The notes beneath the pieces were generated by a model, which did not search any database, was not told the origin of the DNA, and saw only the letters and a program-made list of their open reading frames with translations. From NCBI GenBank assembly GCA_003243255.1, contig QFQM01000016.1, forward strand, positions 1-42,829: 42,829 nt of DNA, given 5' to 3'. A program made the position numbers and the translations under genes. How positions within the stretch are numbered: the first letter of the stretch is position 1; every line of letters begins with the position of its first letter. Positions 7,258-28,406 of this stretch are shown piece after piece. Source of the DNA: Flavobacterium psychrophilum. GTDB taxonomy: Bacteria > Bacteroidota > Bacteroidia > Flavobacteriales > Flavobacteriaceae.

Positions 7258-7329
7258 AATCAGTACTTGATTTAATTAATTTTAACTCTTGTCTTATTTT
7301 ATCTTTTTCCATACCAGACCCATCGATGC

Positions 7330-8082
7330 TTATATCCTGAAGGAAAATCCTATGCTCTCAAAAGTACTGTGCCGGTGGTCATGGCGTGTGGTGATTTCAT
7401 AGCCGCCAGAAACATCCAATTGGATATCTTTCGTAATCAGAAACATCAAACCACCGTCAACCCAATGCTCGCTATGCCTGCCAACCTTAAGGAAACCATA
7501 GGACTCAACAAAAGCTTTAAGCATGTTTGCCAACCGTACAGAAGGTGAAAAAGTATAGTCATACAGCGCCCTGGTATGCTCACCATCCCATTCAATGGAA
7601 GTATTATAGCCCAAATCTATTTCTTGGCTAATGGTATTGCGGAAAAGAAATCGCAACTCAGGACCCGGATAGTCCGTTTTCATGGACTTGGCAGACAAAT
7701 CGGGAAGTAGGACCTGTCCGATAACGGAAGCCTGTGGCAATATACCCTGTTCATCCCATAACTTATACTTAACTCCTACGACTACCGGCTCAAGCCCGCC
7801 CTGTGATTCCCGGGGCTGTTTTTCATAGCAGATAGTGGTTATTACCCGCAGCTCTAATTTGCTGCTCACACCATACTTCCACAGGGTAGAAGGAAGCTCA
7901 AAACGCCGGATGTCTTCAGAGACTTCATAACTGTGTGTCAGGCCGTTTTCAAACTGAAAGCGGTTTAAAGGGACTGTCAAGGGTGTCTCTGTCTGGTCCG
8001 GCCTGTCCGTATCGATCTCATCCTGCTGCGCACTAATAATGTTTAATGACAGTAGGAGAAGCAAGGTAATTTTTTTTTTCAT
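7330..8082 (-). CDS. Outer-membrane transporter-like protein (MetA phenol-degradation family)
   Basis: This 250-residue protein begins with a signal peptide (MKKKITLLLLLSLNIISA, cleavage near residue 18). The mature part opens with the segment DTDRPDQTETPLTVP, characteristic of the Phenol_MetA_deg family in Bacteroidota. The rest consists of alternating amphipathic strands ending in an aromatic/basic terminus (GFSFRI), consistent with an outer-membrane beta barrel. The family name is historical, and a transport role is inferred rather than shown. It is co-directional with the DUF421 gene (about 70-base gap) and may share its transcript. Confidence 0.75.
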   Translation of the reverse strand: MKKKITLLLLLSLNIISAQQDEIDTDRPDQTETPLTVPLNRFQFENGLTHSYEVSEDIRRFELPSTLWKYGVSSKLELRVITTICYEKQPRESQGGLEPVVVGVKYKLWDEQGILPQASVIGQVLLPDLSAKSMKTDYPGPELRFLFRNTISQEIDLGYNTSIEWDGEHTRALYDYTFSPSVRLANMLKAFVESYGFLKVGRHSEHWVDGGLMFLITKDIQLDVSGGYEITTRHDHRHSTFESIGFSFRI

Positions 8083-8300
8083 ACAGGTGTTTTATCTAAA
8101 GTTAACCATTGCTTGCTATTATACTTTTAAACTTTTCATAATTCTTTTTGTAAACGGATTGCCAAATAACTGTAACAAGACTGCAGAACCGAAAGTTTAA
8201 TAGTGTTAAAGCAAGATACGGCGGATTTAACTGGGCGTTAACCGACAATTAACAGGCTTCGGTGTTTACTTTGCACGCAATAACTTGAAATAATACTGAT

Positions 8301-9653
8301 ATGAAAAAGATCAAACTTTTACCGATTGCAGCTTTTGCAATTATGGCAATGGCCTCGTGCAGCGACGACGACAGCAACACAATCGATACTGGCAACCAGC
8401 CCGGCCAGGTAACTGCCCAGGCCAATCTGGAAGAAACAGGGGATTACGATTTAAGCAGTACCCAGAAAAACATCCACCTTAACGGCACTTCTGCAACCTC
8501 CGATGACAGCACCGTTAGCACCAACGAGGGGTCGCGGGTAACAATAACTCAGGCAGGAACCTATCATGTAACCGGTAACCTTACCAACGGTCAGTTGGTG
8601 GTTAAAGCCAATCAGGACCAGAAAGTAAAGATAATCCTCGATAATGCCTCCATTTCAAGCAACACGGATGCTGCAATCGATATTGAGAATGCCGACAAAG
8701 TTATCATCAATGTGAAAGGCGGGACTACTAACTCACTTGCTTATAATGGAAGTAACAGTCAGCACGGCGCTATCTTCAGCAGAACAAAACTAAGCATCTT
8801 CGGAGATGGCACACTAAATCTTAACGGTGGAGGCAACACCGCCATCCACAGCCAGGGAGGTATCATCGTTAAAGAAGGTACCTTTAATTTAACAGCGGGC
8901 ACCGACGCCCTGCATACCGACCATAATATTATCGTATACAATGGCGAGCTAAATATTAATGCGCAAGGTGACGGCTTTAATGCCCAGAGCGATATCACCA
9001 TTAATGATGGCACTATCAATATCACCAACAGCCAGGATGGTTTTGAGGCGGGTGCGGTAAACATCCTTAACGGAAATATCAGGGTTGTTGCCTCTGAAGA
9101 TGGTGTAAGTGTAGATGGGGAAAATACAGACGCAGCTACGCAGCTATTTGTTAAAAATGGCTACCTTTACGTGAACGCTGCAGGAAATGGTTTTGATGCC
9201 AAAGGCTCAATCACTATTGAGGCAGGAACGGTTATCATTGACGGTCCAACCTCGGATAATACAAGCGGAATCAATTATACCTCTTCTTTTAACATTAACG
9301 GAGGATATGTTATTGCGGTCAATGGCAGTAGTTCCATTGGTACACCAAGTGAAAATTCAGCCCAGAACAGCATCATCATCAAATTTGACCAGATGCAGGA
9401 GGCCAATACCCTGCTGCACGTGCAGACAACTCTCGGCGCCAACCTAACGACTTTCAGGCCATCAAAAGGTTTTAAAACTGTACTGTTATCCTCTGCAGCC
9501 ATAAACGACAACGGAACGTTCCAGGTATATACCGGAGGCACGGTTACCGGCGATGTGCTTGACGGCCTTTACGAACTTATCAGCTACATAGGCGGATCTC
9601 TTTACGCTACCTTTACTGTTACAGGCAGTGTCACGACAGTGGCTGCGAGTTAA
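8301..9653 (+). CDS. Surface lipoprotein with carbohydrate-binding beta-helix domain (Cthe_2159 type)
   Basis: This 450-residue protein has a lipoprotein signal ending in lipobox MASC, followed directly by SDDDS. That tail is the S-plus-acidic lipoprotein export signal that sends Flavobacterium lipoproteins to the cell surface. The mature protein is a series of short G-N-D-rich beta repeats (for example GTLNLNGGGNTAI and GTFNLTAGTDALHTDHNI), as in the DUF4353/Cthe_2159 parallel beta-helix proteins that bind acidic polysaccharide. I see no catalytic motif. It is monocistronic with its own terminator at 9681. It probably binds plant or microbial polysaccharide, or matrix material, outside the cell. 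Confidence 0.85.
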   Translation: MKKIKLLPIAAFAIMAMASCSDDDSNTIDTGNQPGQVTAQANLEETGDYDLSSTQKNIHLNGTSATSDDSTVSTNEGSRVTITQAGTYHVTGNLTNGQLVVKANQDQKVKIILDNASISSNTDAAIDIENADKVIINVKGGTTNSLAYNGSNSQHGAIFSRTKLSIFGDGTLNLNGGGNTAIHSQGGIIVKEGTFNLTAGTDALHTDHNIIVYNGELNINAQGDGFNAQSDITINDGTINITNSQDGFEAGAVNILNGNIRVVASEDGVSVDGENTDAATQLFVKNGYLYVNAAGNGFDAKGSITIEAGTVIIDGPTSDNTSGINYTSSFNINGGYVIAVNGSSSIGTPSENSAQNSIIIKFDQMQEANTLLHVQTTLGANLTTFRPSKGFKTVLLSSAAINDNGTFQVYTGGTVTGDVLDGLYELISYIGGSLYATFTVTGSVTTVAAS

Positions 9654-9680
9654 TCTAATAGTTATATAGGATTTAATAGG

Positions 9681-9718
9681 AAAAGCAGGGGGTTGCGTAA
9701 GCGATACTTCTGCTTTTA
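9681..9718 (+). terminator. Probable terminator of the carbohydrate-binding lipoprotein gene
   Basis: AAAAGCAG (9681-9688) pairs with CTGCTTTT (9710-9717) around a long, partly structured loop. The run of T in the right arm is short. It ends just before the next gene starts at 9725. Confidence 0.6.
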
Positions 9719-9724
9719 TCGTTC

Positions 9725-10357
9725 GTGCATCATTACACAAACATTCAAAATTTGAAGCTACCCTTTTCATATTATCAGAATCAGGACGTCACCTTCCTAG
9801 CCAAAGATCTTTTGGGTAAGGTCCTGTGCACGGATATTGACGGGATACTTACCTCAGGTGTCATCGTTGAAACAGAAGCCTACTTTGGTATTCAGGACAA
9901 AGCATCCCATGCCTATGGAGGCCGCAGGACCGCGCGTACGGAAACGATGTATGCACAGGGGGGAGTATCTTATGTCTATCTGTGTTACGGATTGCACCAT
10001 CTTTTCAATGTAATTACCTCAGTTGAGAATGAACCCCATGCTGTCCTGATAAGGGCTATAGTCCCACTCGATGGATTAGGGATAATGGAACAGCGTCGCA
10101 ATATGCCGGTTTCGAAGGTTGCATTTACCGCAGGTCCCGGTGCAACGGCAAAGGCCTTAGGCATTGATCGTAGTCAAAACGGGAAGGATCTCACAGGAAA
10201 TGAAATATGGATCGAGGATCGGGGCATCCGCTTTACAGAAGAAGAAATTGAAGCTACACCGAGGGTGGGTATAGCCTACGCGCAGGAACAAGCTTTGCTG
10301 CCTTGGCGCTTTTTTGTCAAAGGTTGCAGGTATGTGAGCAGGCCAAATAAAATTTAG
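9725..10357 (+). CDS. mpg: DNA-3-methyladenine glycosylase (AAG/Mpg family)
   Basis: This 210-residue enzyme removes alkylated purines in base excision repair. The family core is clear: LAKDLLGKVLC, then GVIVETEAYFG with the catalytic Glu51 and base-contacting Tyr53, His62 in KASHAYGGRRTART, and VYLCYGLHHLFNV. Length matches bacterial members. The chosen start is GTG at 9725, because no ATG exists between the upstream stop and the conserved core. A TTG a few codons later is the alternative. It is transcribed away from a terminator and converges with the unknown three-gene operon ending at 10370. Confidence 0.92.
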   Translation: MHHYTNIQNLKLPFSYYQNQDVTFLAKDLLGKVLCTDIDGILTSGVIVETEAYFGIQDKASHAYGGRRTARTETMYAQGGVSYVYLCYGLHHLFNVITSVENEPHAVLIRAIVPLDGLGIMEQRRNMPVSKVAFTAGPGATAKALGIDRSQNGKDLTGNEIWIEDRGIRFTEEEIEATPRVGIAYAQEQALLPWRFFVKGCRYVSRPNKI

Positions 10358-20268: not shown

Positions 20269-22977
20269 ATGATAACCAATCACAATATAGCTGCATCAGG
20301 GCACTCAAATTCAGGAGATAGTCAAAACCAGCGTATCATCAAAGCTTCCGATATAGGCACAATTTTTTTGGATCTGGGACTGAAGATCACTACATATACT
20401 CCCTCTGTAACCGGAATTTTTAATTTAAACACCGATTTTCATGGGCTTTTTATAGGTGATATAGCCGCTCAGTTGGGCTACATTGATCTTGTCAGCGATA
20501 TAGAAACTGTGCTTGAACAGCTCAATGAAATAGAAAAAGAGATCAAACTGCAAGACGGCAGCATTTACCTGTTCCGGCTTACCCCCTACCGTACTGATAA
20601 GGACCCTATCCGTGGGATTGTCATCACATTTATTAATATTACTGAATCGAGGCGTGCAGAAGAAAGGCTTCAGAAGGCTGAATCTTTACAGCGCGAGAAG
20701 GAAAGCAGGGAGCTACTTCGTTCAGTAATTGATAGTTCTCTGGACATTATACAGGTACTCAAGTCGGTACGAAATGATAAAGGAACAATCATCGATTTTA
20801 AATGGATTATGCAAAACCAAAAGGCTTTCCAACAGAACGGTGATGTTATAGGAGCAAGTTTGCTCGAAAAAAATCCTGGAGTTGTTGACGCCGGAATTTT
20901 TGAAAAGTTAAAGCAGGTTACTGATACAGGGGTTCCCCAGGAACTGGAACAATACTACTCCTCAGAACAATTTTCGGAAAAGTGGTTTTATCTGGCCATG
21001 GTAAAACAGGATGATGGCGTAGTAATGACTACACGCGACATTACAGAGCAGGTAAAAGCAAAAAAAGAAATTTTTGTTTTAAAGGATGAACTTGCCCAAA
21101 ATGTCACTGACAAATATTTAGGACTTTTCAACGCTATTGATGAAGGTTTTTGCATTATAGAAGTTCTTTTTGATAAAGAGGAAAAGCCCTATGACTGGAG
21201 GTTTCTCGAAGTCAATCCCGCTTTTGAAAAAAACAATGGGTTATTTAATGCCACTGGGAAAACAATGGTGGAAATGGCTCCTGATATTGAGCCGAAATGG
21301 TTTGAAATTTATGGAACAGTTGCAAAAACCCAAAAACCACTTCGCTTTAAGGAACATTCTGTAGCACTTAAACGTCACTTTGATTTATACGCCTTCCCCG
21401 TGGACAAACCGGGGGACAATCACGTAGCTGTAATCTTTACAGATATAACCCAGCGCATCATTAGTGAGGATGCGTTGCGGAATTCTGAGGAACGTCTTCG
21501 CGTAACTATGGAGAGTGCGCTGGACTATGTAATTATTACTATGGACACCCAAGGCAATATCCAACACTGGAATACCGGGGCGAAACACACCTTTGGATAT
21601 TCACTGGAAGAAGTAACTGGTAAATCCTTTGGCCTGATTTTTACAGCAGCAGACAGGCAGGATAATATTCCTGAAAAGGAACTTCGTATGGCCAGAGAAA
21701 AAGGCTACGCAGATGACGAGCGGTGGCATTTACGCAAGGATGGGACACGGTTTTTTATGAGTGGGATGACCAGGCCAATATATAATCCTGAACTTACCGG
21801 CTACGTTAAGGTGGCCAGGGATATGACGCAAAACCAACAGGCCGCCGAACAGTTGCGCCTTCTCGAGGAACGGCACAGGATCGCATTGGGATCAGGCGGT
21901 ATGGCCGCATGGGACTGGAATATTAAAGAGGGTAAAATGACGTGGAGTGAAAACCATTACACCTTACTGGGATTGGCCGTTCCGGATTCCTTGGATGCCA
22001 AAGCTCCGGATTTTATGCAATTTGTCCATCCGGACGATAAAAGCGTCATCACTGCTGCGATGGAACAGGCAATGCGCACCGGCGATGTGTATCAGGCGGA
22101 ATATCGTATCATACGGGCAGACAATGAAAAAGTGGTTTGGGGTAAGAGCTATGGCAGCGTGGTAAGTTATGAAAAAGGAAAAGCCGCCCGTATGGTTGGG
22201 GTCATGCTTGATATAACGGAACACAAATCACTTACCGAAGAACTCAGCCGATTAGTAGCCGAAAGGACAAACGAACTACAACGCTCCAATGACGACCTGC
22301 GCCAATTTGCCCATGTGGCCAGCCATGACCTCAAAGAGCCTGTACGAAAGATACGCACCTTCAATAATCGCCTACTGGATGAATTTGAAGATAGTCTGCC
22401 CCCACAAGCCAAAACATTTATAGAAAGGATCGAATCATCATGTGCACGCATGTATTCGATGATTGAGGGAGTGTTGCACTATTCGAAGTTAGAAGGTGCC
22501 AATGCGCCGCTCGAAGATGTTGACCTTAATGCGATCATCAGCCACATAAGTACCGACCTGGAGGTTTTGATAGAAGCAAAAAATGCATGCATCTTAACAG
22601 CAGAACTTCCTCTTATTAAGGCGAACAACAGCCTGATTTACCAGCTGTTCTATAATCTGATACTTAATGCACTTAAATTCTCAAGATCAGTTGTTCCTGC
22701 GGAAATTAAAATTTACGCTTCACGGGTGAACGTAAATTGTGTTGAATATTTCAAAATAGAACTGAAAGATAACGGTATTGGGTTCGACAGCAAATACTCT
22801 TCAACTATTTTCAACACCTTCACAAGGCTGAATTCGGCTGATCTTTATGAGGGCTCCGGATTAGGGCTGGCGCTCTGTAAAAAGATTGTCGAACGCTATA
22901 AAGGCAGCATAAGTGCTGAAGGCCTGCCCGGCGAGGGTGCCACTTTTACGATTTTACTTCCAACTAATAATTTTTAA
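20269..22977 (+). CDS. Multi-PAS sensor histidine kinase
   Basis: This 902-residue cytoplasmic kinase has about five PAS/PAC units before the catalytic core. PAS1 (about 25-130) resembles the PAS of CheB/CheR fusion proteins (GTIFLDLGLKITTYTPS ... GIVITFINITE). PAS2 is at about 147-260, PAS3 at 285-395 and PAS4 at 400-520 (DYVIITMDTQGNIQHWN). PAS5 is at about 530-655 and of the PAS_3 type (WDWNIKEGKMTWSENHY). HisKA carries His686 in HVASHDLKEPVRKI. HATPase_c has YNLILNALKFS, DNGIGFDSKY and GSGLGLAL. A receiver gene follows one base after the stop and is its likely target. The signals are unknown. Confidence 0.92.
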   Translation: MITNHNIAASGHSNSGDSQNQRIIKASDIGTIFLDLGLKITTYTPSVTGIFNLNTDFHGLFIGDIAAQLGYIDLVSDIETVLEQLNEIEKEIKLQDGSIYLFRLTPYRTDKDPIRGIVITFINITESRRAEERLQKAESLQREKESRELLRSVIDSSLDIIQVLKSVRNDKGTIIDFKWIMQNQKAFQQNGDVIGASLLEKNPGVVDAGIFEKLKQVTDTGVPQELEQYYSSEQFSEKWFYLAMVKQDDGVVMTTRDITEQVKAKKEIFVLKDELAQNVTDKYLGLFNAIDEGFCIIEVLFDKEEKPYDWRFLEVNPAFEKNNGLFNATGKTMVEMAPDIEPKWFEIYGTVAKTQKPLRFKEHSVALKRHFDLYAFPVDKPGDNHVAVIFTDITQRIISEDALRNSEERLRVTMESALDYVIITMDTQGNIQHWNTGAKHTFGYSLEEVTGKSFGLIFTAADRQDNIPEKELRMAREKGYADDERWHLRKDGTRFFMSGMTRPIYNPELTGYVKVARDMTQNQQAAEQLRLLEERHRIALGSGGMAAWDWNIKEGKMTWSENHYTLLGLAVPDSLDAKAPDFMQFVHPDDKSVITAAMEQAMRTGDVYQAEYRIIRADNEKVVWGKSYGSVVSYEKGKAARMVGVMLDITEHKSLTEELSRLVAERTNELQRSNDDLRQFAHVASHDLKEPVRKIRTFNNRLLDEFEDSLPPQAKTFIERIESSCARMYSMIEGVLHYSKLEGANAPLEDVDLNAIISHISTDLEVLIEAKNACILTAELPLIKANNSLIYQLFYNLILNALKFSRSVVPAEIKIYASRVNVNCVEYFKIELKDNGIGFDSKYSSTIFNTFTRLNSADLYEGSGLGLALCKKIVERYKGSISAEGLPGEGATFTILLPTNNF

Positions 22978-22978
22978 A

Positions 22979-23410
22979 ATGACAAGAATATTACTTATAG
23001 ACGATGACAGGGACGACAGGGATTTTTTTACTGCCGCTTTATCCAGGCTGCCACATGAAGTGCAATGTACTACCCTTGAAAATGGCCACGCCCTATTACC
23101 TAAATTAGCCCAGGGAGCGATTGACCGCCCGGATGTAATATTTCTGGATGTAAATGTGCCGGAGATGAGCGGGTGGGAATGCCTTAATCTGATCAAAGCC
23201 TATGAAAATTTCAAAAATATTCCTGTCATTATGTATTCGACCTCAAAGCATCAGGAAGATATCCTAAGGGCAAGGACAAGCGGCGCTTTATGCTTTTTTA
23301 CAAAGCCTTATGCGATTGCAGAGTTAAGGGAAGCACTAACAGACGTGGTGAGTCGCTTAGAAAAAGGCAACATTGAAAATCTGGCACGGGAATCGCCATT
23401 GTTCTTTTAA
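22979..23410 (+). CDS. Single-domain response regulator, partner of the multi-PAS kinase
   Basis: From ATG 22979 this is 143 residues. A longer in-frame extension upstream into the kinase gene is not needed. It has acidic pocket D8-D9-D10, acceptor D57 in VIFLDVNVPEMSG, a switch Ser/Thr in VIMYSTSKHQED, and Lys in FFTKPYAIAEL. It has no output domain. The ATG begins 1 base after the kinase stop, which indicates translational coupling and a cognate pair. Confidence 0.93.
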   Translation: MTRILLIDDDRDDRDFFTAALSRLPHEVQCTTLENGHALLPKLAQGAIDRPDVIFLDVNVPEMSGWECLNLIKAYENFKNIPVIMYSTSKHQEDILRARTSGALCFFTKPYAIAELREALTDVVSRLEKGNIENLARESPLFF

Positions 23411-23536: not shown

Positions 23537-23812
23537 ATGCCAAATTTCAAAAGAGAAGATTTAAAATACAATTATAACTGGGACATCCCTTTTATCGAGA
23601 AAAAATACGTTGAGCGTGACGATTTTATCGACCGCAAGAATGGTCATCAGATGCTGTCGTTCTTCAATCGTTTCCTTAAGCTTCATGGGCTTTTCAGTCG
23701 CAGTTCGCTGCACAGGCTTGAAAAATTAGTCTGTAAGTATATGCCTGCCAGAATAAACACCAGAGCTCAAATCAAGGACTGGATAGGGGAAAACTGGAGC
23801 AGGCATTTTTAA
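23537..23812 (+). CDS. Unrecognised 91-residue basic protein
   Basis: This small Arg/Lys-rich protein has aromatic clusters (FNRFLKLHGLFSRSSLHRLEK) and a C-terminal segment with DWIGENWSRHF. No signal or membrane helix is present, and no family was recognised. Basic helical sequence of this kind suits a nucleic-acid- or protein-binding role, but that is a guess. It stands alone after the kinase/receiver pair and converges on the stressosome operon end; a weak hairpin lies in the 23813-23948 gap. Confidence 0.55.
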   Translation: MPNFKREDLKYNYNWDIPFIEKKYVERDDFIDRKNGHQMLSFFNRFLKLHGLFSRSSLHRLEKLVCKYMPARINTRAQIKDWIGENWSRHF

Positions 23813-23948: not shown

Positions 23949-25571
23949 TTAGTGTAAGACCGGTAAGAATACATCAATGGTTGTCCCCGAACCGGGAATG
24001 CTGTGAATCGCAATCCGGCCGCCATGATTTTCAACTATCTTGTCGCATAATGCGAGCCCAATGCCTGTGCCTTCATATTCGCTTTGGTGATGCAGCCTCT
24101 TGAAAATGGTAAATATTTTCGAAATGTATTTATCGTCAATCCCTATTCCATTATCGGTTACTGATATTTTATGAAAGTTTTTATTTTCCGGTTGATTTGA
24201 TTTACTATTTTCCAGATATTCATATCCGATGCTGATAACAGGGATGGCTTCTGTAAATTTCAGCGAATTGCCAATCAGATTGTAGAACAATTGTCCCAAC
24301 TGAACCGGAATACCCTTAACCACCGGTAACTCAGGTAAGCTTATATCGGCTTTTTTCTCCGCGATTTGAAATTCAAAATCATCAATGACTTCGCTCATCA
24401 CGACATTGAGGTCAACCTCTGAAAATTCATTTTCTTTATTGGTAAGTTTCGAATAATTCAGGACATCGGTAATTAGCCTGGACATACGCTCAGCCGATGC
24501 ATTGATCTTATTGAAATATAGCTTCTCTTTTTCTTCTTTGGTCAGGCTTCTCTCGGCAAGGGAAGTGAAATTCCTGATCTTGCGCAAAGGCTCCTGCAGG
24601 TCGTGGCTGGCTATATAAGCAAACTGTTCCAGCTCTTTGTTTTTTCGGAAAAGCTCGTCATTGGTCTTTTTCAGGTGCTCCTGTGCCTCCCTTAGTTCCC
24701 TGTTATCCTTAAGGGTTTCTTCAATAAGCTTTTGCGCATGTATATCAACCATTGAAATGATCCAACCGGGCGCGTTGCCGTTTTCGTCACTTTCCGGAAC
24801 AATCGAAATGAGATGCCACAAATAAGAATCTTTAATGTTTACGCGGGCCTGCCCTTTGAAAACTTTATCTCTCTTTTTTACCATCTCCCACCCTTTCAAG
24901 ACGCTGTCCGCATCTTCAGCATGAAAAAGTCTCCGCATTGCCGGTGTAGTGAATGAAGTAAAGGCATCTCCCAGCAAATCCTTTAGCTGTTTATTGGCCA
25001 GGCTCACCATACCGTGGGCATTGACAGAAAACACAATCAGTGGCAGGGTATCAGTTACCTGACGGTATTTGCTTTCGCTATCGCTTAGTTTCTCCGAAAG
25101 CTCTATAAGCTGAATATTTTTCTTTCGTATCTCCTCATACGGTGAAAGTGCGCTTTCCCGTTTGAAATGCTCTACAAATGATTGTAGCCGGCTCTCCGAT
25201 ATTATCCCTGAATATGGTAGCTTAAGGGTTAACGTAGTGGTATATTTGCCTTGTGCGTGATCCCGTTGGATATCTTTTGACAGGCGGGAAGCATAGGCAT
25301 AAGCATCAGGGTTGCAGCTTTCAAGGTCAATACTGTCACTGATTACAGCCATGATCTGTTTTTTGCCTCCATTGAGGGAATGGATCCCCAGTTGCAATGC
25401 TGAATTTTCCCCATGGGTAATCGAGCAGCGTGCAATCTCAGAAACCGCAGTGGCAAAACGTGTTTGGGACGATGCTATCAGTCCGCATAACTCCGCAAGC
25501 TTAATGGTCCTTTTATGGGCAAGGATCAAATCCATTTCATTGTCCAAACTGATACGCGCTATCTCTTTCAT
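23949..25571 (-). CDS. Hybrid histidine kinase: degenerate RsbT-like head, PAS, HisKA, HATPase
   Basis: This 540-residue protein ends the stressosome operon, 2 bases after the phosphatase gene. Residues 1-120 resemble the GHKL ATPase fold of RsbT/RsbW (FATAVSEIARCSITHG against the RsbT line TAASELVRNLLKYGG). However, the metal-binding Asn of the N box is Cys49, and no DxGxGI loop is present, so ATP binding there is probably lost. A PAS domain follows (about 165-280). HisKA then carries His323 in IASHDLQEPLRKI, and an intact HATPase_c has DNGIGIDDKY and GTGIGLAL. I infer that the head docks on the stressosome and the kinase transmits the output to a receiver. Confidence 0.88.
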   Translation of the reverse strand: MKEIARISLDNEMDLILAHKRTIKLAELCGLIASSQTRFATAVSEIARCSITHGENSALQLGIHSLNGGKKQIMAVISDSIDLESCNPDAYAYASRLSKDIQRDHAQGKYTTTLTLKLPYSGIISESRLQSFVEHFKRESALSPYEEIRKKNIQLIELSEKLSDSESKYRQVTDTLPLIVFSVNAHGMVSLANKQLKDLLGDAFTSFTTPAMRRLFHAEDADSVLKGWEMVKKRDKVFKGQARVNIKDSYLWHLISIVPESDENGNAPGWIISMVDIHAQKLIEETLKDNRELREAQEHLKKTNDELFRKNKELEQFAYIASHDLQEPLRKIRNFTSLAERSLTKEEKEKLYFNKINASAERMSRLITDVLNYSKLTNKENEFSEVDLNVVMSEVIDDFEFQIAEKKADISLPELPVVKGIPVQLGQLFYNLIGNSLKFTEAIPVISIGYEYLENSKSNQPENKNFHKISVTDNGIGIDDKYISKIFTIFKRLHHQSEYEGTGIGLALCDKIVENHGGRIAIHSIPGSGTTIDVFLPVLH

Positions 25572-25573
25572 GG

Positions 25574-26590
25574 TTATAGGTTTATTTTTGCGGTAAATAT
25601 TGACATGTCATCATTGTAACGTGCATTGCCTTTATAAAGAACCGCGGCTATCAGTCCCGGATCATACTTGAGCAATCCCGGCAAATCCTTAAGGTTCCAT
25701 CTTGTTCGCAGGCCATCAGAATGCATTATAAGTGTCTGGTAACGGTTCAGCTCCTGTACCGAGTCATTGAGGGTTCTGGGTATGTTGTGGCCAATGATAC
25801 CGTTATAAGGCGTATAGTTCTTACAGGCAAGCCCTGTGTAAAGGCTGGTAGCGATGTTACCAACACCGCACGTCAGCCATCTTTGAAGCTTGTAATCCAA
25901 ATAGCTTACCGTCGCCACAAGCCCCCTCGTTTTTTTTACATTAAGGTGAATATATTTCAGTACCTCGGCAGGGCTTTTTTCCCTGCAGCTTTCAAAGGCT
26001 TTTATAGCTTCGATTACAGCCTCATTAGCGTTAATGCCGTGCCCTAGTCCGTCACCCATGAAGAATTGGTATCCGTCTGCGAATTTTTTAACGGCATAAC
26101 CGTCGCCGCAGATTTTTTCGCCGGGGCAGCACACCTTGATCGCTCCAAAATCAAATTGATTCTTCTCCGTTCTCATAGCTGGCTGATCTTTATATACCCT
26201 GCTGTGTACGACTGTACCCCAATCAGGTATACTATAGACTGCTGAGGAGTGGCTAAGGCGTTCGATCGCGCCAAAACCCTGTCCTAGCGTATTGGATGTC
26301 GATACGCCATCCTGCATCATCCTGGCAAGGTTTCGGATGCCTTTTCCATTATCAAGGCAGTAAATTTCAAAAAAAATACCGTCAACATCACTTCCTGTGC
26401 GATACAACAGCTCGCCCTCGCCGGCAAATTTTATAAGGTTTGAGGTAAGTTCCGCTACAATGATATCGACCTCTCCTATTTTTTGCGGGTTAAACCCGGC
26501 TGCAAATACCAGATTGTGAATCTCCCTCTTTATATAAGAAACATAACTCCTGTCTTCTATCTTATAGCTCAAAAAAACGGTATCATCCAT
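25574..26590 (-). CDS. RsbT-like ATPase fused to PP2C (SpoIIE/RsbX-type) phosphatase
   Basis: This 338-residue protein has two parts. Residues 1-140 are a GHKL kinase-like domain with an intact N box (VAELTSNLIKFAG, E47 and N51), G1 box DNGKGIRNL and a G2-like GQGFGAI. Residues about 150-338 are a PP2C-type phosphatase with metal motifs CGDGYAV, MGDGLGHG and RYNDDMSIF. In Bacillus, RsbX resets the stressosome by dephosphorylating RsbS and RsbR. Here the phosphatase is fused to a switch-type ATPase, as in other Gram-negative RST modules. The start overlaps the rsbT stop by 8 bases, so translation is coupled. Confidence 0.9.
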   Translation of the reverse strand: MDDTVFLSYKIEDRSYVSYIKREIHNLVFAAGFNPQKIGEVDIIVAELTSNLIKFAGEGELLYRTGSDVDGIFFEIYCLDNGKGIRNLARMMQDGVSTSNTLGQGFGAIERLSHSSAVYSIPDWGTVVHSRVYKDQPAMRTEKNQFDFGAIKVCCPGEKICGDGYAVKKFADGYQFFMGDGLGHGINANEAVIEAIKAFESCREKSPAEVLKYIHLNVKKTRGLVATVSYLDYKLQRWLTCGVGNIATSLYTGLACKNYTPYNGIIGHNIPRTLNDSVQELNRYQTLIMHSDGLRTRWNLKDLPGLLKYDPGLIAAVLYKGNARYNDDMSIFTAKINL

Positions 26591-27002
26591 TTTTCCATTT
26601 TATAATTGTAACCGTGGTGCCTTCACCTACAGTTGACTTAATACTAAATTCATTAACAATCCGCTTGGTTCCGGGCAAACCCAGGCCAAGGCTCTTTCCG
26701 GTACTGTAACCGTCCTTCATCGCCAGGTCAATATCCTGTATGCCCGGCCCTTTGTCTGAAAATATAAGACGTATGCCATCTTCCCGGCCATTTGAGACCG
26801 ACTCGACTTCAACGGTACCTCCCCCTCCATATTTAAGAAGGTTTCGTACCAGCTCGCTCGCAGCTGTAATTAGCTTGGTCTGGTTCAGAATCCCCATACC
26901 GATTTTTACGGCTGCTTCCTTCACCTTATTGCGAAAGGGAACTACATCCATTTCCTTTGCGATGATAAAGTTCTGCTTATTCAGCACCACCGTCCTGGTC
27001 AT
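26583..27002 (-). CDS. rsbT: RsbT-like switch kinase of the stressosome
   Basis: This 139-residue GHKL kinase has an N box with E50 and N54 (TAASELVRNLLKYGG), G1 box DKGPGIQD and G2 box GKSLGLGLPGTKRI, all as in RsbT. RsbT phosphorylates RsbS and RsbR on stress and then leaves the complex to activate a downstream partner. In Bacillus the partner is the phosphatase RsbU; no RsbU gene is present here. The start overlaps rsbS by 26 bases. The order R-S-T is the classic stressosome order. Confidence 0.92.
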   Translation of the reverse strand: MTRTVVLNKQNFIIAKEMDVVPFRNKVKEAAVKIGMGILNQTKLITAASELVRNLLKYGGGGTVEVESVSNGREDGIRLIFSDKGPGIQDIDLAMKDGYSTGKSLGLGLPGTKRIVNEFSIKSTVGEGTTVTIIKWKNG

Positions 27003-27375
27003 AACTTATGCCTTCACTTAAAAGAATCTTCTTACGTAACAGTTCCATGCCTTTTTCGACATTAAGCGCTGTAGAGACTCCGGTTAATGTCAGGCCAAGC
27101 TCTACCAACGTCATTGCTACTGCTGGCTGCATGCCCACTATAACTGACTCTGCCCCCATAATCTTTGACATCACACCAATATTTCCCAAAATACGTCCCA
27201 TAAAAGAATCGATTATGGAAACCGCTGAGATGTCAATCAGGACACCTTTCGAGCCGTTTTTTTGAACGGCATTGACAAGGTCAGTCTCAAGATTTTCAGC
27301 CAGCTGATCATAAAGATCAACCTGTATGGTGACTAACAGAAAGTCACCCATTTTCAAGATAGGGATTCTTTCCAT
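26977..27375 (-). CDS. rsbS: RsbS-like STAS antagonist of the stressosome
   Basis: This 132-residue single STAS domain holds RsbT in the stressosome core until phosphorylated. The phosphorylation site is Ser57 in VSIIDSFMGR, aligned with Ser59 of Bacillus RsbS. The rest follows the STAS fold (KGVLIDIS, ESVIVGMQPAVAMTLVELG). It is 4 bases after rsbR and overlaps rsbT, so the stoichiometry of the three is probably set by translational coupling. Confidence 0.93.
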   Translation of the reverse strand: MERIPILKMGDFLLVTIQVDLYDQLAENLETDLVNAVQKNGSKGVLIDISAVSIIDSFMGRILGNIGVMSKIMGAESVIVGMQPAVAMTLVELGLTLTGVSTALNVEKGMELLRKKILLSEGISYDQDGGAE

Positions 27376-27379
27376 CAGC

Positions 27380-28231
27380 TTAACTATGTATTACACCAGC
27401 TTTCTTTTTAGCGACTTCGAGCTGAAGCATAGCGAATGCCGTCTGTAATGCACTTGCCAGGGTTGATTTTGTGATAATATTAGACAGGTCTATACCCAGA
27501 TGTACTACAATTTGTGCGATTTCAGGACGGATACCACTTATTATGCATTCTGCACCCAAAAGCCTTGTAGCGCTGACAGTCTTAATCAAATGCTGCGCTA
27601 CCAGCGAATCGACTGCAGGAACTCCTGAAATGTCAAGTATCGCAATAGTACTGCCGGTCTCAACAATCTGCTGAAGCAGATTTTCCATTACAACCTGGGT
27701 CCTTGCGCTATCCAGCGTACCAATTATAGGAAGGGCTACAACACCGTCCCATACTCTGATAACAGGTGTAGAAATTTCAGTGATCTCGTCTGTCTGCCTT
27801 GCGATAACGTCCTCACGTCCCTTGATGTATCCCTCAAAAGTAAGGATGGCCATATTATCTATTATTTTACTGATCTTCAGGCTGTCTTCATATAATTGTT
27901 TTGGTTCATCAATGTGCGTTGATAATGTTTCAAGAAGTGCTTCCTTAAAAGTGAACAGATAAATCCCCGTCTCTCTTGGCGAAAATCCTCTCTTAGCCCT
28001 TGATATGGAAATTCCCATAAGTGTGTCGTGCACTTTCTCAAAAGACCTGTCATCTTTATCATTTATGCTTGTTTGATTTAAAGCAGCTAAAAATGCAGTT
28101 ATAAAATCTTCAGAATCCTCGTCCTGATCCTCGCTGTTAAAATAACTCTCCTCTGCCTTTTGTTTGGATATCCAAAGTTCAAGGATTGTCTCCTTGCTTT
28201 CCTTTAAAATTTGTGTCGTTTTATCTTCCAT
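27380..28231 (-). CDS. rsbR: RsbR-like co-antagonist with sensor head and STAS domain
   Basis: This 283-residue protein has an N-terminal RsbRD-type four-helix sensor region (about 1-145) without the globin fold of Bacillus RsbRA. A linker and a C-terminal STAS domain (about 155-275) follow. The STAS domain has LPIIGTLDSART and DISGVPAVDSLVAQHL; the residues at the two RsbR phosphorylation positions (Thr171 and Thr205 in Bacillus) are Ser175 and Ser209 here. RsbR and RsbS build the stressosome shell, and the heads receive the stress signal. It is the first gene of the five-gene operon and has an exact -7 box upstream. Confidence 0.92.
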   Translation of the reverse strand: MEDKTTQILKESKETILELWISKQKAEESYFNSEDQDEDSEDFITAFLAALNQTSINDKDDRSFEKVHDTLMGISISRAKRGFSPRETGIYLFTFKEALLETLSTHIDEPKQLYEDSLKISKIIDNMAILTFEGYIKGREDVIARQTDEITEISTPVIRVWDGVVALPIIGTLDSARTQVVMENLLQQIVETGSTIAILDISGVPAVDSLVAQHLIKTVSATRLLGAECIISGIRPEIAQIVVHLGIDLSNIITKSTLASALQTAFAMLQLEVAKKKAGVIHS

Positions 28232-28269
28232 TAAGGTTACTGATTATGGTTATAATGATATAATATAAA

Positions 28270-28277
28270 CAAAAATA
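28270..28277 (-). promoter_or_regulatory. -7 box of the stressosome operon
   Basis: On the minus strand the sequence is TATTTTTG, an exact TAnnTTTG match 39 bases before the rsbR ATG. A TTTG lies 15 bases further upstream, slightly closer than the usual 17-23 base spacing. Confidence 0.55.
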
Positions 28278-28406
28278 CTATAGAAATAAAAACAAACGGT
28301 TATATTTTACACATAATTTCTTATAGTTTTTACCGCCTTTTCGCTAGCTTTTAGCCTGTAAATAGACGATAAAACAGCTACTACAAAAGGCTTAACTGTT
28401 CGTCCC

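Follow-up and report, generated by a model that had tools for sequence, protein, structure and literature searches.

The stretch of DNA analysed here, hereafter the window, comprises 42,829 nucleotides of Flavobacterium psychrophilum (contig QFQM01000016.1, positions 1 to 42,829) and carries on its minus strand an operon of five genes (Table 1) encoding the stressosome proteins RsbR, RsbS and RsbT, an ATPase-phosphatase that we call X and a histidine kinase that we call K. The N-terminal domain of K derives almost certainly from RsbT and has lost its ATP site, which suggests a possible route from a stress sensor straight into a two-component pathway, with no stress sigma factor in between.

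Table 1. Genes of the stressosome operon and N-terminal segments of K, in window coordinates
Feature	Coordinates	Strand	Length	Description
rsbR	27380-28231	-	283 aa	RsbRD-type N-terminal domain and STAS domain; stressosome sensor/scaffold
rsbS	26977-27375	-	132 aa	single STAS scaffold protein
rsbT	26583-27002	-	139 aa	switch Ser/Thr kinase; N, G1 and G2 boxes intact
X	25574-26590	-	338 aa	RsbT-like ATPase domain (about residues 1-140) and PP2C/SpoIIE phosphatase; RsbX-like by position
K	23949-25571	-	540 aa	histidine kinase: pseudo-RsbT domain, helix, PAS, HisKA, HATPase_c
K residues 1-135	25167-25571	-		degenerate RsbT domain; N-box with Glu45 and Arg48 preserved but Cys49 instead of Asn; G1 loop and ATP lid lost by deletion
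K residues 136-168	25068-25166	-		conserved helix joining the pseudo-RsbT domain to PAS

The stressosome operon of the window

The initial annotation had described five tightly packed genes, and the coordinates, the Pfam assignments and the matches to solved structures bear it out: rsbR and rsbS are separated by 4 nt and X and K by 2 nt, while rsbS and rsbT overlap by 26 nt and rsbT and X by 8 nt. The elements of a stressosome module, namely an RsbR with sensor and STAS domains, a STAS protein RsbS and a GHKL kinase RsbT, are thus found in one operon. RsbR contains RsbRD_N (9.4e-18) and STAS (6.6e-15) domains and matches over residues 10-277 a solved stressosome RsbR (E 6.6e-33), its Ser175 and Ser209 occupying the alignment positions of two Thr that the solved variants 9o3o and 9o3z have replaced by Ala. 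RsbS (STAS, 2e-10) matches a solved stressosome RsbS (E 9.6e-32) along the greater part of the protein, and its Ser57 falls on a Ser position that is mutated to Ala in the solved variant 9o4r. On the basis of these Ala variants and of what is known of the family, we take Ser57 of RsbS and Ser175 and Ser209 of RsbR, with Ser in place of Thr, to be the phospho-acceptor sites. RsbT (HATPase_c, 3.4e-13) retains the N, G1 and G2 boxes, as do all 67 RsbT compared, that of the window included. In X, the phosphatase is recognized by Pfam (SpoIIE, 2.2e-8) and the ATPase domain falls below the cut-off (HATPase_c_2, 1.1e-4, 22.7 bits for a cut-off of 27.4 bits); the latter is nevertheless related to RsbT by hhalign (99.6%, E 5.3e-24), and the Glu and Asn of the N-box are present in 61/61 X. 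Upstream of rsbR (28232-28300, minus strand), about 65 nt before the gene, lies the arrangement TTTG-15 nt-TATTTTTG, which resembles a promoter of the Bacteroidota type with a shorter spacer.

The initial annotation also noted that the operon holds no SigB branch, and the genomes of relatives are in line with this. The RsbU_N domain is found in none of 12 relatives' genomes, B. subtilis being positive, and none of the 12 exceeds the curated cut-off of the SigB/F/G model, all of them having sub-threshold sigma-factor matches. Among 14 control genomes, B. subtilis is the only one over this cut-off.

The N-terminal domain of the kinase

The last gene had been read as a PAS histidine kinase. This holds for the PAS_4, HisKA and HATPase_c domains detected by Pfam, which make K a histidine kinase of the HisKA type, but the description was incomplete: residues 1-135, which match no Pfam family, form a pseudo-ATPase domain derived from RsbT and thereby a specific link to the stressosome. 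The relation to RsbT is detected by hhalign (95.4%, E 1.7e-8) and is backed by a series of intermediates and by a domain tree. Residues 1-135 have a GHKL fold of the RsbW type, and the model of K places helices at residues 12-28, 33-53 and 144-168; a sequence search of solved structures with a six-row alignment of the domain gave nothing significant (best E 0.047). Other origins of the N-terminus were discarded, namely a decaying duplicate of the C-terminal ATPase domain of K itself (hhalign 0.26%), a PAS-like sensor (hhalign 0.24%) and an RsbU_N domain, the fold being RsbW-like and Pfam giving no RsbU_N match at E values up to 1.

A search with residues 1-165 of K retrieved 917 proteins at E <= 0.001, and the following statistics concern the best 120 of these 917, many of the named ones coming from Flavobacterium. 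Their mean identity to the K of the window is 0.57 for residues 1-135, 0.74 for residues 136-165, 0.42 for PAS, 0.70 for HisKA and 0.52 for the catalytic ATPase domain, figures which favour the N-terminus because the homologues were selected with that very segment. Residue 45 is Glu and residue 48 is Arg in 120/120, and residue 49, at the position where the Asn of the ATP site would stand, is Cys in 118/120.

The ATP-binding motifs of an active kinase are lacking in the K of the window, the N-box Asn being Cys49 and the G1 loop and the lid being deleted; its N-terminal domain is therefore derived from RsbT without being an active RsbT. When 62 RsbT were compared with 39 degenerate K, the G1 loop and the lid were a gap in 39/39 K, and the same residue was found in at least 90% of both groups at nine positions (E12, D14, Q36, T37, T41, A42, S44, E45 and R48 in K numbering), all of them located in helices 12-28 and 33-53 of the model. 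At these nine positions, X keeps the Glu in 61/61 cases and mostly not the others. The loss of the ATP site combined with the retention of one face is the pattern expected of a module used for docking only, and we infer that the retained face, formed by the first two helices, meets the STAS proteins.

Across the relatives, the N-terminal domains of K grade from motif-complete to ATP-dead. One weakly related K (L159), whose match to RsbT reaches only 10.8 bits, was counted among the 40 'other' K of the motif comparison. Fusions of a motif-complete RsbT domain to HisKA and HATPase_c also occur (P0121-P0160, Pfam layout HATPase_c_2, HisKA, HATPase_c); all 40 stand in public databases as generic kinases, and 3/40 are named as Acidobacteria.

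Conservation of the operon and of its receivers

Among the loci seeded with the N-terminal domain (best 80 of 112), the order R-S-T-X-K is present in 79/80, a recurrence that places the arrangement beyond chance, and its carriers include, besides Flavobacterium, named Cytophaga, Emticicia, Spirosoma, Larkinella, Chryseolinea, Flavihumibacter and others; Flavobacterium aquidurense and Cytophaga aurantiaca (L032 and L054) are among them, the Cytophaga operon having a receiver of its own. In the sole exception (L075), K stands apart and is followed after 10 bases by a receiver, and R-S-T-X lies on another short contig of the same genome. Two complete R-S-T-X-K operons (L006 and L025) lie about 20 kb apart on one contig of Flavobacterium hungaricum.

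The converse search, seeded with RsbS (E <= 1e-12), gave matches in 12/296 genomes phylum-wide, in 40/241 and 8/248 genomes of two orders and in 15/199 genomes of one genus; the phylum sample alone is unbiased, because the orders and the genus were picked around K-carrying genomes. We set aside seven genomes whose RsbS matches were only weak and were judged RsbR-like (30-31% identity in open frames of 296-380 aa, E between 2e-14 and 5e-13), together with a broken second copy with internal stops in one genome (G468). Of the 66 loci read, 65 were assessable, the contig of the other one (L157) ending 949 bases after the RsbS start. In 58/65, the gene right behind X codes for a K bearing an RsbT-related domain, in L159 only a weakly related one. 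As for the seven others, K stands one gene further in L086, the contig ends at L164, whose K is found elsewhere in the genome, and in L087-L091 X has a single domain and such a K is lacking. This comparison of operon order, which the initial annotation had suggested, shows that the kinase is not missing in most relatives, yet in the phylum-wide sample it directly follows X at only 6/12 RsbS loci (7/12 if L086 is counted).

In L088, the gene following the single-domain X (7268-9811, plus strand) codes for a HisKA_3-type kinase whose RsbU_N score, 25.0 bits, falls just short of the 25.5-bit cut-off. On this evidence, at least two kinase solutions coexist in Bacteroidota, one of the RsbT type and the other apparently of the RsbU_N type. 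In L086 (7687-11892, plus strand), the gene between X and the RsbT-type kinase encodes a double-receiver histidine kinase, and one single-receiver and one double-receiver gene stand behind, so that this stressosome operon carries an extensive phosphorelay cluster.

After exclusion of 16 near-duplicate operons, 29/116 operons have a single-domain receiver gene right next to them on the same strand, and only 15 other single-domain receiver genes occur in 1,053 kb of flanks. The direct neighbours are distributed unequally between the classes of K, with 24/48 for the lower-scoring degenerate class, 4/52 for the high-scoring, Flavobacterium-like class and 1/16 for the intact-domain class; in seven intact-domain loci (L138-L141, L143, L144 and L155), a weaker-scoring receiver stands just beyond K on the opposite strand.

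In the window, the nearest receiver gene (22913-23410, plus strand) codes for a single-domain protein, is convergent with the operon and overlaps the end of a gene for a 902-aa multi-PAS histidine kinase (20269-22977). It is disfavoured as the partner of K and fits the 902-aa kinase better, being on the strand opposite to K and overlapping the gene of the 902-aa kinase, but is a candidate receiver for either kinase. Between it and K lies an open reading frame of 91 aa (23537-23812, plus strand) with no Pfam match.

A proposed stressosome with a two-component output

The model we propose is a stressosome having a two-component pathway as its output, to which we assign a probability of roughly 0.6. 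RsbR and RsbS would constitute the STAS core, which, by homology, RsbT would phosphorylate upon stress and X would dephosphorylate. K would have arisen when a kinase of the HisKA/HATPase type acquired an RsbT domain by fusion, and in the lineage of the window this domain, which has lost its ATP site, would keep docking as its only role. K would dock, most likely, on the STAS surface that is also used by RsbT, and the phosphorylation of the core would result in the loss or the change of this docking, a change transmitted through the conserved helix to PAS and then to the kinase domain of K, which would phosphorylate a single-domain response regulator. The functional coupling of K to the stressosome is very probable and its role as an output rather than an input is probable, whereas docking on the STAS core is favoured with only modest confidence. 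More broadly, and as a tentative proposal held at slightly less than even odds, histidine kinases would be structural clients of the stressosome: RsbT, X and K, all bearing RsbT-family domains, would compete for the same STAS sites, the Ser/Thr phosphorylation of the core would directly gate a His-Asp relay, and the docking module of K would be a pseudo-kinase decayed from an active RsbT through intermediates found in living relatives.

Several observations weigh against this model. The domain tree that contributes to it comprises 137 columns, its bootstrap is unsettled and it contains one long row; the N-terminal domain of K does not match the RsbT-like domain of X by hhalign (2.7%, E 0.017); K is absent altogether at 5/12 RsbS loci of the phylum-wide sample; receivers are few beside the high-scoring and the intact-domain operons; and the RsbT-like domains could instead have RsbT, one another or a sigma-like protein as their binding partner. 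Finally, the operon of the window itself contains no receiver gene. The passage of the output into a phosphorelay, suggested by the initial annotation, is consistent with the kinase being a stable member of the operon and with the receivers abutting related operons, but for the organism of the window it is deduced from these relatives.

The first alternative, which we consider unlikely, makes the pseudo-RsbT domain a receptor for free RsbT rather than a ligand of the STAS core: RsbT released upon stress would pair with it and turn the kinase on, the domain thereby taking over the function of RsbU_N. Pairing in dimers is known from RsbW and SpoIIAB, and the RsbW/SpoIIAB-type fold of the domain agrees with it. 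This alternative can also draw on the near-threshold RsbU_N match of the L088 kinase, which belongs to a Bacteroidota operon with a single-domain X. In the known pathway, the released RsbT binds a dimeric N-terminal domain of its effector, and some Proteobacteria have stressosome operons whose kinases carry RsbU_N (PMC12143880). The part that K retains from RsbT is, however, the helix pair bearing the N-box, which weighs against this alternative.

Less probable still is a K acting as an input, a decoy of RsbT on the STAS sites whose own PAS state would set the amount of free RsbT. K does have its own PAS sensor, and its docking domain, which judging from its motifs would not bind ATP in the canonical manner, is what is expected of a competitor, but the intact HisKA-HATPase kinase and the operon-linked receivers point to an outward phosphotransfer. 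A K that shares only its transcript with the stressosome and does its sensing on its own, with a ligand sensor built on a recycled fold, is very improbable: genes of an operon need not interact and the K of L075 stands apart, but the genome of L075 retains R-S-T-X, the linkage is otherwise near-obligate and the RsbT-specific positions are retained in K.

The idea of a two-component output for stressosomes is already in print (PMC9237108, PMC12143880). PMC9237108 describes an RSTX module without SigB, lists the Bacteroidetes among its carriers, presumes two-component proteins to be the output and calls open the question of how a stressosome passes its signal on when there is no sigma factor; according to that work, most downstream proteins have no recognizable RsbT-binding domain, and no interaction was seen between VvRsbT and VvD1. 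For Vibrio brasiliensis, PMC4976288 likewise left open what the stressosome output is. Our full-text literature search, whose scope left most subscription papers outside, found no description of an RsbT-derived domain on a histidine kinase. In the window, the link is written in the protein itself, as the kinase bears the switch domain of the stressosome, and this leads to a concrete and testable docking model that names residues.

The operon shares with that of Vibrio vulnificus an RSTX module without RsbU, RsbV, RsbW or SigB followed by two-component proteins, there VvD1-VvD2, the proposed output (PMC9237108); in V. vulnificus, RsbR is globin-coupled and RsbX is a single-domain protein, whereas the window has an RsbRD-type RsbR, an X with an RsbT-like domain and a kinase with an RsbT-derived one. 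With the Bacillus and Listeria RsbRST-RsbUVW-SigB pathway it has in common RsbR, RsbS, RsbT and the presumed phospho-acceptor positions, and differs from it by a kinase standing in the place of RsbU and by the absence of RsbU_N and of an over-cut-off SigB/F/G in all 12 relatives' genomes. K departs from the RsbW/SpoIIAB family by the loss of the ATP lid and of the N-box Asn and by its fusion to a histidine kinase. Its closest analogues in design are the RsbU_N effectors of stressosome operons, histidine kinases and GGDEF proteins (PMC12143880), which also combine an N-terminal partner-switching domain with a helical linker; their N-terminal domain is the four-helix RsbU_N that binds RsbT, whereas that of K derives from RsbT, the other partner of the switch.

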